A DNA stretch of 38,378 nucleotides. Source: a virus. Position numbers and translations under genes: made by a program. Positions 8,475 to 26,722 of the stretch are shown here, in pieces (within the stretch, counting starts at the first letter, position 1; each line of letters opens with the position of its first letter). The DNA lies in IMG/VR virus record IMGVR_UViG_3300034789_000724, positions 1 to 38,378 of that record; one strand, 5' to 3'. A model generated the notes under the pieces. That model worked only from the letters and a program-made list of their open reading frames with translations, was not told the DNA's origin and made no database searches.

Positions 8475-11400
8475 TTATCTCAACGCAAGTATAAGTGGTG
8501 TAACCTCTGCCTGTATTGCTTTACTAAAGTCTCTTCCTCTAACTGTGGATGTGGTTTGATCGACCTGAATTCCTGCACCGATATCAAAGTTTCCTTTTTG
8601 ATCTGTTGAAGTAAATGGAATTTGTGCTCCTTTACTAACAACAACCTCATTCTCTTTTATTGGAATAGCACCTTGGAAAGGTAGTGATGTATTTATACTG
8701 GTACCTGAACCAACGTATTCAAAAGAATGTGAGCTGGTTAGAATACGACTAATTCTTTGCAGGGTAAAAGGGTCATCCTCAAATAGTTCATAAGGAACAA
8801 ATTCATTAAAAGTCATTGTAGTTATTCCAGTATTAATGATAGGTTCAGTTGCTTCGGAGATTGTGAAATAAATTGGTTCCATAACTGCATTTGCAAGTGC
8901 AGTATTACCATCAATATCTACTACAATATTTTGTGTAGGAAGATAGTTTCTTCCAGAATTAATAACATCAATTTCAGTTAAAATTCCATTTTCATCAATA
9001 GTTGCACTTGCTTCTGCAATAATACCCTGTGGTCCCTTTGGTTCAAGAGTTCCATCATTATCCCTAATAGTAACTGTTGGTGGAACTGCAGCAGAAAATC
9101 CTCCAGGAGAACCAATAACTTCAATGCTTGAAAGTTCTTGAAGTGGTGCTGTTATTCTTCCAGTTGCTTGTTCTGCTGCAGGAACATCTGGATAGTTTGC
9201 TAAGTTAATTTTAAAATATAATGCTTGCCCATCAAATGGTCTTCTAACTATATCACTTGAATCAGTAACTCCCTTACCAACAACTACATCAGAATTATCT
9301 CCAGGAACAATATCCGCATTTACTTTACCAGTAAATTGTGTTGCGCCAAGACCAACAGCAACTAATCCAAAATTACCAAATGATGAGTTGGAGTTTGTAA
9401 GATCGCATTGTGCTCCAGTATCGGCGTAGATTGCAATATCATTATTAATTGTAAAGATAGAAACCAACTGAGCATATGCATTGTTAGTCAGAGATACACC
9501 AATCCCCGCTTCATTATACTGAGTAAAGGAATCACAGACCATTGATTTTAAGTCTGCTCCAGGAATTACTGTTCCTGTAAAATTCGCTATTGCATCATCA
9601 CCATTAATTCTCATACCAATACTTCCGGTCATAAAATTGGTACAGTTTCTAACGTATGGAGATCTCCAACGTTTTGTAGGACCTTCGTCTGCTGGACCAG
9701 CAGCAGTATATCCACTATTTGCTGTCACTCCAGTTATCGGGAATGCAACTGCACCTGCACCACTATGGTCAACAAAAATATTGTCACCAGCAAAATTTAA
9801 ATTCTCAATCAGACATCCTCTTCTGACCCAGAAAACATCTAAATTTGTATTTTGTGGTTCAATAGTAACAAGTCTTAAATCCTCTCCAGTAATTGATACA
9901 TCTCTTTGAAGACCAACTGGATTATTCTCAACATATCTTCCAGGACGAATCTTAATTGTATCTCCAGGTAGAGCAACCGTCGCTGCAGCACCAACTGTTG
10001 CTTTAGCATCACCCTCTAATAACCCACTGTTAGAATCATCACCACTTTTTGAAACCCAAATAGTTTTCTTTGTTTCAACACCTGATGGTCTCCAAGATAC
10101 ACCAGCACCGACAGATGCTAAACGATAATCTTTCCCATTAACTCCAGTTTGTTGATTTATATCAATTATTGCATTCTCAAGTTCTAATGTATTTTCTAAC
10201 TTAGTTTCTTGACCAACAAAAAGTTTCTTACCAATTGCAGCACCACCAACCACCTGTAATGCTGCCGTAGCATCAGATGCAGTTGCATCAGTTTCAGATT
10301 CTACTTTAGTTTCGTTACCAACAAAAAGTTTCTTGCCGATGGCAGCACCACCAACCACCTGTAATGCTGCCGTAGCATCAGATGCAGTTGCATCAGTTTC
10401 AGATTCTACTTTGGTATCTCCACCGATAAAAAGTTTCTTAACTATTCCAACGCCACCATCAATTTGAACTGATGCATTTGTAGTGCTAGTGGCGTCTGTT
10501 TCATCATTAAATGTTGATACTCCATCAACATCAAGAGTGCTATTAAGAGTGGTAGCACCATCAACATCAAGAGTGCTATTAAGAGTAGTAGCAAGATCAA
10601 CATCGAGAGTGTCATTAAGTGTTGTAGCACCATCAACATCGAGAGTGTCATTAAGTGTTGTAGCACCATCAACATTTAACGTTCCGTTTATATCTAGATC
10701 AAACTGTGGATTATTTTGTTTGATTCCAACTCTAGTATCCCTATAAATTGGTGCATCATCTCCAGAACCATTAAATCCCCAAAGATCATTGGTAAATATG
10801 GTTGCAAGTCCAGTAACTGTCTGTGGATGTCTAGCAGTTGGAACAAGTGTATCAGTTCCTTTTCCAAGACTATTTAATTGGACAAAATTTAGAATTGAGA
10901 AGGATTGTCCAGCACCAACTTGACCCCCTTGTCCTGGAGTTGGTACAAAGACACCTTCATCCTGTAGGAAAATACCTTCTTGGAACGCAGGTTCAAATGG
11001 TACCCAAGTTATACCATTTTCATCTTTACTTAAGAAATTACCAGAAAGACCTTTTAGATTTCTAGAGTCATAAATTTCTTTCTGAATAGAAATACTTCCA
11101 TTAATATCTAATTTTATTGATCCATCATTATTAAAATTTGCCGGAACTGTTGTTCCAACACCAACTACTCCTTGATCAGTAATTACGATACTGTCATCTC
11201 CAGAAAGAATCTGAACTTTTTCTAGGGGTGCGGTTGTTCCTATACCAACTTTATCCGTTCTAGTGTCTGCTGTGAATAATGTTCCACCTACACCAACATC
11301 AAAACTTCTTTTTACTAAAAGATCTTTGGCGATAGAAACACTTCCGTCAATATCAAGTTTTAATGAACCATCATCAGTAAAATCAACAGGTGTCGTTGTT

Positions 11401-23631: not shown

Positions 23632-24338
23632 TGTCTTATTTTAGAGAACTACCTGATATTGCATATCAGTCAAATCTTCAACATAAAATTTCTTCAAAAG
23701 AATATGTTGCTATCAAAAATCTTTTCCGTAGAGTAAAGGTTAGAGATTCTATTCAAGATAAAACAACTTTATATTCTAAGTATACTATTCTTCAAGGTCA
23801 ACGACCAGACACGATTGCAGAAACATTTTATGGTTCCTCTGAATTGGACTGGGTTGTTGTATTAACTGCAGGTATAACAAACATTAGAGACCAATGGCCA
23901 CTCTCCAATAAAGATCTCTACGTTTATGCAGAAAACAAATATGGTACAAAATTAAATGATATTCATCATTATGAAACCCTCGAAGTAAAAGACTCCAAGG
24001 GTCGGTTAATTCTTCCTCCTGGTCAGAGAGTTGACCAAGATTTTTCTATTCCTGCACCCTATGATGCTACTATCACAGGTAATAGTTATGTTGCAACAGG
24101 TGCATATGAAAATACTAAGTACACAGGAACAGGTGACATCAATCCAGTAATTGGTATTTCAAACTTTGTTTATGAAACAATTCAAAATGAAAAGAAGAGA
24201 AAGATATTCTTATTAAAATCAAAATACTTGGGACAATATTTGAGTGAAATAAGAACTATTATGAACTATAGTGAAAGTTCTCAGTTTATCAATGAAAGAT
24301 TAATTAAGACTGACAACACTAGACTCATCGGTCCATAA
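23631..24338 (+). CDS. 53: Baseplate wedge protein gp53, 235 aa
   Basis: MSYFRELPDIAYQSNLQHK, then RVKVRDSIQDKTTLYSKYTI and RPDTIAETFYGSSELDWVVVL are the conserved LysM-like N-terminal block of gp53; SEIRTIMNYSESSQFINERL is the typical C-terminal end. In T4, gp53 (196 aa) bolts neighbouring wedges together around the hub. Coupled with gp48 by TGATG. Its last 39 bases overlap the end of the convergent Mom-like gene, so no terminator separates the two. Confidence 0.85.
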   Translation: MSYFRELPDIAYQSNLQHKISSKEYVAIKNLFRRVKVRDSIQDKTTLYSKYTILQGQRPDTIAETFYGSSELDWVVVLTAGITNIRDQWPLSNKDLYVYAENKYGTKLNDIHHYETLEVKDSKGRLILPPGQRVDQDFSIPAPYDATITGNSYVATGAYENTKYTGTGDINPVIGISNFVYETIQNEKKRKIFLLKSKYLGQYLSEIRTIMNYSESSQFINERLIKTDNTRLIGP

Positions 24339-24917
24339 GAGATCTAATTTTTTATCAAATACCATTACATATCGGTGTTTACGGGATCGATATTTCCATT
24401 CTCCCTCAACACCTTTCATTTTGCCGCGTGAGTGCTTGGTACCGTCTGCATAATAGAAGTCTTTTTTAGCATCTGTAAGCCCACAATATTTAAAGTTACA
24501 AGCTCGATAGATTGTACCACCATGAAAGTCGCTATCAGCGTAAGAAATGATTGCCCTAACTTTAGTCTCTCTGCGTAACTGTTTGATACATCTGGATACG
24601 AACCAGGAAGTAATATTATATTCTGTTTGTTGTGTGTCAGGGTGAATACAAAGTCGTGAAAGTTCAAAGAGACCTTCTTGTTCATTTCGGTCTAGACCGA
24701 ATGCTCCTTGTGCTATTTCTGGAACGGGGAGACCCGTAAAGATACAGACTCCCTTGATGCCACCGATATTGAGTGGACTAAAATCATTATTTTCATAAAG
24801 ACCATAATTGTATCCAGATTTGAAATCTTTAGAAATATCCTTTAGATAGTGATATTTTAAAAGTAGTTCTGCTGATTGTGATTTGGTTACACGGTCTATA
24901 TAAAAATCTAATTTCAT
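24300..24917 (-). CDS. Mom-like DNA modification protein (GNAT-fold), 205 aa
   Basis: The order of motifs fits the Mom family (phage Mu adenine methylcarbamoylation protein): N-terminal LLLKYHYLKDIS, IGGIKGVCIFTGLP, FELSRLCIHPDTQ, SWFVSRCIKQLRRE, then ISYADSDFHGGTIYRACNF and KYCGLT followed by a basic tail (SRKHRYVMVFDKK). Mom proteins have a GNAT acyltransferase fold and modify adenines in phage DNA, protecting it from restriction. The exact modification made by this protein cannot be told from sequence. Overlaps the HNH-like gene start/stop by 4 bp (ATGA) and gp53 by 39 bp tail-to-tail. A generic GNAT acetyltransferase is the alternative. Confidence 0.65.
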   Translation of the reverse strand: MKLDFYIDRVTKSQSAELLLKYHYLKDISKDFKSGYNYGLYENNDFSPLNIGGIKGVCIFTGLPVPEIAQGAFGLDRNEQEGLFELSRLCIHPDTQQTEYNITSWFVSRCIKQLRRETKVRAIISYADSDFHGGTIYRACNFKYCGLTDAKKDFYYADGTKHSRGKMKGVEGEWKYRSRKHRYVMVFDKKLDLLWTDESSVVSLN

Positions 24918-25312
24918 AACATTTTTTCTAACGCATTTCTAGTATCAACACCAGAAAAATGATTTTTTAACAATTGTACTTGTTCTTTGAACATAGACTC
25001 TGGACAACGCTGTCTACCAAGATTAAAAAGTCTTAAAGCAATAACAACATTCCCTGGAACATATCCAAGGGATTCATCTAATCTCTCTAAACTGGGAGCA
25101 AGAGGATTGGGACTTATAAAAATACCCTGTGGGTCAATAGGAAAATCCGTCCAGTAACACATGCCTTTTTGTCTAGTAAATTGATGAATAAGATACTGTT
25201 CATCAATAGTAACATCTAATGGTTCTGTTCTTTTAATTCCATTTTTCTTTTCTTGTCCAGGACGGGCAGCAGTTTTTGCTTTTTGAACAAGTGCTTTCCA
25301 AGGATTTTTCAT
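24914..25312 (-). CDS. HNH-like endonuclease protein, 132 aa
   Basis: I start at MKNPWKALVQKAKT (ATG 25312) because a longer reading frame begins inside the gp32 terminator hairpin. Motifs: KGMCYWTDFPIDP, then PSLERLDESLGYVPGNVVIA and LRLFNLGRQRC. This C-x-W/Y-T ... SLERLD-x3-GY-x-x-GNV ... N-L-G-R order is that of divergent HNH endonuclease-like phage proteins in which the first His is replaced. Could be a homing-type nuclease or a nuclease working with the Mom-like gene; activity is unproven since not all HNH residues are present. It sits between the gp32 terminator and the Mom-like gene and has no obvious ribosome site. Confidence 0.45.
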   Translation of the reverse strand: MKNPWKALVQKAKTAARPGQEKKNGIKRTEPLDVTIDEQYLIHQFTRQKGMCYWTDFPIDPQGIFISPNPLAPSLERLDESLGYVPGNVVIALRLFNLGRQRCPESMFKEQVQLLKNHFSGVDTRNALEKML

Positions 25313-25313
25313 A

Positions 25314-25351
25314 ATAAAAAAAATAATGAAACCGCAGAAGTAAATCTGCGG
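25314..25351 (-). terminator. Rho-independent terminator after gp32
   Basis: On the minus strand a perfect 7-bp stem CCGCAGA / TCTGCGG with a 6-base loop (25351-25332) is followed by TTTCATTATTTTTTTT. It lies 39 bp past the gp32 stop and should end the gp32 message before the HNH-like gene. Confidence 0.8.
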
Positions 25352-25390
25352 CATCGGATTTAGTTACACGGTATGTTGTGTAATCAGACT

Positions 25391-26326: not shown

Positions 26327-26371
26327 TTAGATTACCTCGGATTAGTTTGGATTTGTTGGATTTGCTTGGAT
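26327..26371 (-). promoter_or_regulatory. Unstructured ATCCAA-repeat leader of gp32 (possible autogenous operator)
   Basis: Between the -10 box and the ATG the minus strand reads ATCCAA-GCA-AATCCAA-CA-AATCCAA-ACT-AATCC-GAGGT. Three ATCCAA copies and a fourth partial one are spaced 9-10 bases and contain almost no G, so the RNA should be single-stranded. T4 gp32 represses its own translation by coating an unstructured leader next to the ribosome site; this leader looks suited to that role. GAGGT is the ribosome site. Confidence 0.5.
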
Positions 26372-26400
26372 ATTATAACAAAGAAACCATCAAGAGTCAA
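26372..26400 (-). promoter_or_regulatory. Sigma70-type promoter for gp32
   Basis: Minus strand: TTGACT (26400-26395), 17-bp spacer, TATAAT (26377-26372). Both boxes are at or one base from consensus with optimal spacing. Start of transcription expected about 7 bases downstream, giving a leader of about 40 nt. Confidence 0.85.
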
Positions 26401-26722
26401 TGTAATTTTTCAATGCCTCGATGGTCGCACTCATACTATTGAATAGCATACTCATGTCGGTCTCAGGTGGAAAACCCATCATTACGACTGACTTGCGAAG
26501 GTTCTCTTTCATTTCAACCGCTTTAGGATCTTCCGAAAGAGATAACCTAGTATACATCACTTTTTGCTTTTCTAGCAAGTTTGACAGTATTTCAACATGT
26601 TTTAATCTGTCTTCGTTGGACATAGAATTAAAATTAAAGAGAGAACCATAGATTCTCTCTTGCAACTCATTGATTTCTTTTAATTCATCTTGAATAATTT
26701 CAGAATCAAAAAAATCACTCAT
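26390..26722 (-). CDS. DUF1825-like protein, 110 aa
   Basis: MSDFFDSEIIQDELKEINEL, then the helical middle KHVEILSNLLEKQKVMYTRLSL and the C-terminal MGFPPETDMSMLFNSMSATI resemble the cyanobacterial DUF1825 family (host proteins begin with a similar FFDSEIVQ block and end in a similar FG/MTPQQM region). All-helical, no catalytic residues visible, no signal or membrane segment. Lies between gp32 and gp59 within the replication cluster; its stop overlaps the gp32 promoter -35 region by about 10 bp. Function unknown in both hosts and phage; likely acquired from a cyanobacterium. Confidence 0.7.
   Translation of the reverse strand: MSDFFDSEIIQDELKEINELQERIYGSLFNFNSMSNEDRLKHVEILSNLLEKQKVMYTRLSLSEDPKAVEMKENLRKSVVMMGFPPETDMSMLFNSMSATIEALKNYIDS

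Follow-up and report, generated by a model that had tools for sequence, protein, structure and literature searches.

A conserved 9-10 nt repeat array in the leader of phage gene 32, a candidate variant of the T4-type autogenous translational operator

The window analysed here, the whole stretch of 38,378 nt of IMG/VR virus record IMGVR_UViG_3300034789_000724, carries on its minus strand a gene for the single-stranded-DNA-binding protein gp32. The product matches PF08804 (E=5.5e-45), phrog_224 and four solved structures, all of them gp32 (8gme, 2atq, 2a1k and 1gpc, with E values of at most 1e-47), and these matches identify it as a true gene 32. Its upstream neighbor is a DUF1825 gene, as it is in P-SSM2, S-SKS1 and S-PM2, and the promoter falls mostly within the 63 nt that separate the DUF1825 stop codon from the gene 32 start, its -35 element overlapping the DUF1825 3' end. 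Downstream of gene 32, in the interval 24300-25354, a gene for a Mom-like DNA modification protein adjoins an endonuclease-like gene. The leader (26371-26327, minus strand) occupies the interval between promoter and start codon and reads, in order, TTGACT-17-TATAAT, ATCCAAGCAA ATCCAACAA ATCCAAACTA ATCCGAGGTA ATCTAA, ATG (Table 1).

Table 1. Features of the gene 32 locus, in the direction of transcription
Feature	Position in window	Strand	Basis or remark
Upstream gene, DUF1825 / phrog_468	26390..26722	-	DUF1825 and phrog_468 matches
Sigma-70-type promoter TTGACT-N17-TATAAT, TG-extended -10	26372..26400	-	11/12 match
Unit 1 ATCCAAGCAA	26362..26371	-	abuts -10 hexamer
Unit 2 ATCCAACAA	26353..26361	-	sequence
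Unit 3 ATCCAAACTA	26343..26352	-	sequence
Unit 4 ATCCGAGGTA, ribosome site inside	26333..26342	-	sequence
Shine-Dalgarno GAGGT	26334..26338	-	sequence
Unit 5 ATCTAA (AATCTAA with the preceding A), in the Shine-Dalgarno to ATG gap	26327..26332	-	sequence
Gene 32 (gp32), single-stranded-DNA-binding protein, 311 aa	25391..26326	-	PF08804, phrog_224, structures

An initial annotation of this leader had described four repeats with a 9-10 base period, lying between a strong promoter and the GAGGT ribosome site. The promoter and the period are as it described them, the unit starts on the minus strand (26371, 26361, 26352, 26342 and 26332) giving spacings of 10, 9, 10 and 10 nt. There are five AATCY units, however, not four; the one overlooked is the AATCTAA between GAGGT and the ATG. 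GAGGT falls within unit 4, and unit 5 lies beyond it. The low G content also stands, with 4 G in the 45 nt of this leader and a mean of 3.7 G per 38 nt in the leaders of its clade vs 6.7 in other leaders. Transcripts from this promoter may start downstream of unit 1 and so lack it; read-through RNA from the upstream genes would include it.

Conservation was assessed in a set of 476 sequences, which yielded 458 usable gene-32 leaders and 329 representatives, 325 of them long enough for units, defined as ATCC, ATCT or ATAC, to be counted in the last 45 nt. The 325 gene-32 leaders average 2.96 units per 45 nt, compared with 0.60 for 936 control leaders, which precede other genes of these loci, and 0.74 for shuffled sequences; at least three units occur in 65.5% of the gene-32 leaders vs 0.7% of the controls and 3.1% of the shuffles, with the proviso that leaders within a clade are kin and the counts are therefore not independent. 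The shuffles and control leaders together rule out a pure effect of composition. Loss of the repeats in close relatives was the outcome that the initial annotation had singled out as fatal to its proposal; the comparison has now been run, and the array is kept across hundreds of gene-32 leaders. A literature search that covered few subscription papers found no paper on cyanophage gene-32 repeat leaders, and an earlier description is possible.

The clade to which the window belongs comprises 57 leaders whose gp32 proteins are 73-92% identical to that of the window. These average 4.68 units, at positions close to -6, -16, -25, -35 and -44, with a unit starting at -6 in 43 of the 57. Unit 1 is kept as ATCC or ATCT followed by AAG or GAG in most of them, as is the TTGAC-N17-TATAAT layout, and a site of the GAGG/GGAG/AAGG/AGGA type is present in 89%. 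The unit positions recur though fourfold-degenerate sites within gene 32 are only 53% identical across the clade, and the array is thus held by selection rather than by recency of descent.

As the unit definition was derived from these same leaders, two checks that require no motif were also run. Autocorrelation of base identity peaks at lags of 9 and 10, with a further peak at 18-20, in gene-32 leaders only. The second check, joint permutation of whole columns within a clade, which preserves relatedness, gives z values for the 9/10 signal of 10.3 in the window clade, 5.9 in the P-TIM68-type clade and 4.2 in the S-PM2 clade; the signal is moderate in the Moby-like clade (10/400 permutations), and under this permutation the periodicity is not significant in the S-SSM5 (35/400) and mixed (23/400) clades. 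In P-SSM2 and S-SKS1 (L083 and L084) the annotated gp32 start is placed 75 nt downstream of the conserved ATG, and the deposited annotation therefore conceals the array.

The array is also specific to gene 32. For three ATCC strings separated by gaps of 4-7 nt, chance predicts 0.08 occurrences in the window, and the only place where they are seen is the gene 32 leader, as two overlapping matches; the probability of at least five ATCY strings in a leader of the same composition is about 7e-5. Ranked by unit number, gene 32 is first among the 61 ORF starts of the window, the runner-up having three unphased units. Among the 400 ORF starts of S-SKS1 and the 382 of S-PM2 it likewise leads, either in the number of units or in the regularity of their spacing. 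A five-unit periodic array occurs in the window and in S-SKS1, the closest isolate, at the gene 32 start only. In P-HM1 two other ORF starts exceed gene 32 in units, without the spacing, and two further starts equal it in both number and spacing. A scan of the 22 records behind the loci returned other three-unit matches; eighteen regions with such matches were checked, and all but one lie inside open frames no shorter than 52 codons. The sole exception, a leader with ATAC repeats, precedes a uvsX-like gene of a single Moby-like phage (L490 / L496, G011 ~10112-10155). As a second regular target uvsX was set aside, this being a single phage and the other uvsX leaders examined having no array.

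While the spacing recurs from clade to clade, the letters of the unit change. Counts of ATCY to ATAC are 266 to 1 in the window clade and 130 to 4 in the S-PM2 clade, and the preference is reversed in the S-SSM5/P-HM1 clade (134 ATAC to 16 ATCY) and the Moby-like clade (146 to 3); both forms are used in the P-TIM68-type clade. Unit variants across the clades include AATCC, AATAC, ATACAACGC and ACTGT, the last in some T4 relatives such as phage CC31, which is recorded on E. coli and has three ACTGT copies in its gene 32 leader, and unsupervised counts of multi-copy 5-mers return AATCC, AATAC, ATACA and ACTGT, mostly at spacings of 9 or 10. Unit type segregates by gp32 clade. Cyanophage clades have a modal spacing of 9-10 nt, and the Moby-like clade one of 8-11 nt. 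Homogenization of the units inside one leader is modest, as judged from the P-TIM68-type clade, where within-leader resemblance is 0.64 vs 0.55 expected. Many leaders of that clade (L070, L251, L327 and others) have a conserved GTACACA(C/A)AAGCCAAATC block 5' of the units. In L400, L404, L413 and L452, hairpins of the GGGGAGTTCCC type replace the unit arrays just upstream of gene 32.

Nor is the array a by-product of the ribosome site, because units persist, at means of 2.3-4.2 by clade, in the 66 of 322 leaders, from six clades, that lack a Shine-Dalgarno-like string. It also lies in unfolded RNA. The last 38 nt have a minimum free energy of -1.2 kcal/mol vs -3.1 in control leaders; shuffles of the same composition likewise give -1.2, and the low folding energy is thus attributable to composition.

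Folding upstream of the array differs between clades. Neither a pseudoknot nor a hairpin is present in the window leader, which has no fold upstream of the ribosome site, and no Rfam family matched in the leader or anywhere in the window. Compensatory changes support a 5' stem in the S-SSM5 clade, in which 96.2% of cells are paired and 13 cells are changed on both sides vs 2.5 in shuffles, and which also shows a clear maximum over slid partners; this stem overlaps promoter elements, so that it may have a role as DNA. In the S-PM2 clade a consistent pseudoknot was rejected, as RNAalifold backs only a GTGA/TCAC hairpin of four pairs, for which covariation is weak. Mean unit number is 4.7 in the window clade vs 2.5-2.8 in other clades, which suggests that copy number may make up for the absent folded element.

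Several other structured RNAs were encountered at these loci. The manA RNA (RF01745), a separate structured RNA that is absent from the window, immediately precedes the gene-32 array on its 5' side in at least five metagenomic phages: L187 (3774-3972), L384 (3781-3973), L321 (2913-3102), L183 (12-207), L026 (851-1051) and, in part, L254 (1-77). A matching AATCCAACCTCCC tail is present in 10 loci. A permuted tmRNA (RF04321) is present on a 117 kb viral contig (L469, 238-558), and the cyanophage-like contig L133 has, at 2436-2492, a glutamine riboswitch (RF01739) match that barely exceeds the gathering score.

The closest known system is the autogenous operator of T4 and RB69, in which a 5' pseudoknot is followed by unstructured UUAAA/UAAA repeats that run through the ribosome site (PMC535899, PMC3014915); in T4 both the pseudoknot and the repeat stretch are reported to be essential (PMC535899, PMC3014915). 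The window leader resembles the T4/T2 and RB69 operators in its gene and position, in being an unstructured, repeat-bearing leader that extends through the ribosome site to the AUG, and in having gp32 as its natural candidate ligand. It differs in lacking the 5' pseudoknot, in having AATCC (AATCY) units at 9-10 nt spacing in four to five copies instead of UUAAA/UAAA, and in the absence of the zinc Cys ligands from its gp32, and with these three differences it is classed as a candidate variant of the T4 operator and not as a member. The initial annotation had called the leader unlike the T4 pseudoknot type, which is correct as to the missing folded half but overstates the contrast, as the T4 and RB69 operators also have repeats. 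The RB49 gene 32 leader is described as having no pseudoknot, like that of the window; its A+U-rich UUAA repeat stretch is kept according to one account (PMC535899) and not according to another (PMC3014915).

The best-supported explanation for these observations, to which we assign a probability of roughly 0.6, is that the leader serves as an autogenous translational operator for gp32, equivalent to the repeat half of the T4 type but built from a different unit and without the folded element. Once single-stranded DNA is saturated, free gp32 would become available and would bind the G-poor, unstructured leader RNA, with about one protomer per 9-10 nt unit, assembling cooperatively along the array until the filament covers both GAGGT, which is part of the array, and the ATG adjoining its last unit, and initiation is blocked. 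The unit sequence would favor the gene 32 leader over other RNA, and four to five units would in the window clade replace the folded 5' nucleation element, which is a pseudoknot in T4 and probably a 5' hairpin in other clades. We infer the ligand, its one-to-one register with the units, its cooperative assembly and the resulting repression from the arrangement of the array.

That the leader may be an autogenous operator had been proposed in the initial annotation, and the evidence bears on this in both directions. In its favor, the array is unstructured, reaches the ATG through the ribosome site, persists where that site is missing and has clade-specific units. Against it, there is no folded half, and of the T4 zinc ligands the window gp32 keeps the His but has C77, C87 and C90 replaced. 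The zinc domain is, by the title of a study cited elsewhere, essential for T4 repression (Shamoo 1991, cited in PMC535899), and the arrays must therefore either act without the zinc domain or do something else; of all the evidence the missing ligands weigh most against carrying the T4 model over unchanged. The S-PM2 clade has the Cys trio in 37 of its 48 proteins and the window clade in 3 of its 57 (L060, L067 and L076); in marine cyanophages the loss of the T4 Cys ligands, with the His retained, is the state of most gp32 proteins. The zinc knuckle is not linked to unit number (2.84 units with it, 3.04 without), nor, by inspection of the S-PM2 clade, does it track the 5' hairpin. Binding of gp32 to single-stranded DNA is moreover sequence-independent (PMC535899), so that sequence-specific units are not strictly to be expected.

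Of the alternatives, all of them less likely, the main rival is that no repressor is involved and the array purely enhances translation, constitutively, its unstructured A/C-rich sequence offering ribosomes a standby site on the message of a highly expressed gene. The unfolded, G-poor character of the last 38 nt fits such a role, and the loss of the Shine-Dalgarno-like string from many leaders makes an alternative ribosome-loading signal plausible. An unfolded state requires composition alone, however, and no unit repeated every 9-10 nt; the array is missing from other leaders of the same phages, and its spacing persists while the unit letters vary by clade. We consider this account unlikely, though it deserves to be kept in view.

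It is more improbable still that the units are recognized by another RNA-binding protein, either a host protein or the phage repressor RegA. RegA is encoded by cyanomyoviruses (PMC2984593) and is known to block initiation regions, its sites in T4-like phages resembling the array in that a protein occludes unstructured initiation regions, and the UAA triplets that a reference title in PMC3014915 gives as the outcome of SELEX with RB69 RegA may be counted in its favor. RegA sites are many per genome and have no clear common sequence, about 30 mRNAs being targets in T4 (PMC3014915), whereas in the window, S-SKS1 and S-PM2 gene 32 alone carries the array; a many-target pattern was not found for the five-unit periodic array of the window and S-SKS1, and the other matches checked sit within open reading frames, bar the one uvsX leader.

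The spacing of about 10 bp, the adjoining -10 element and, in the S-SSM5 clade, an inverted repeat across the promoter region could alternatively point to a transcription factor that acts just downstream of the promoter and binds the repeats as DNA sites, each about a helical turn from the next. This is very unlikely, since spacings of 9 and 10 are mixed and the distance from -10 to ATG varies over 38-45 nt, so that helical phase drifts; in addition, the units are anchored on the ATG and flank the ribosome site, and the S-SSM5 inverted repeat shows compensatory substitutions, as in an RNA stem. Least credible is pairing of the units with the 16S rRNA 3' tail as an extended or repeated ribosome-docking signal: AUCCA is complementary to the UGGAU next to the anti-Shine-Dalgarno, and GAGGTAATCCAA is a near complement of the 16S 3' end, but the units change among phages that share a host group, the AATAC units of leaders such as that of P-HM1 do not pair, and other genes do not make use of such a signal.

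How gp32 distinguishes its own mRNA from other nucleic acid has been called unclear (PMC535899), and a later review urged the study of gp32 autocontrol among diverse T4-related phages (PMC3014915). A broader and more tentative extension, which we think somewhat less probable than its negation, is that the gene-32 operators of the T4 superfamily are arrays of short units at 9-10 nt, the letters of which diverge from clade to clade and co-diverge with gp32. On that view the gp32 filament would recognize RNA letters in phase with the footprint of the protein, and for the clade of the window specificity would come from copy number in place of a pseudoknot. The leaders collected here form a natural series with constant spacing and differing units, with and without a folded element and with and without the gp32 zinc knuckle, and the recognition by gp32 of its own mRNA is therefore directly testable by swaps.
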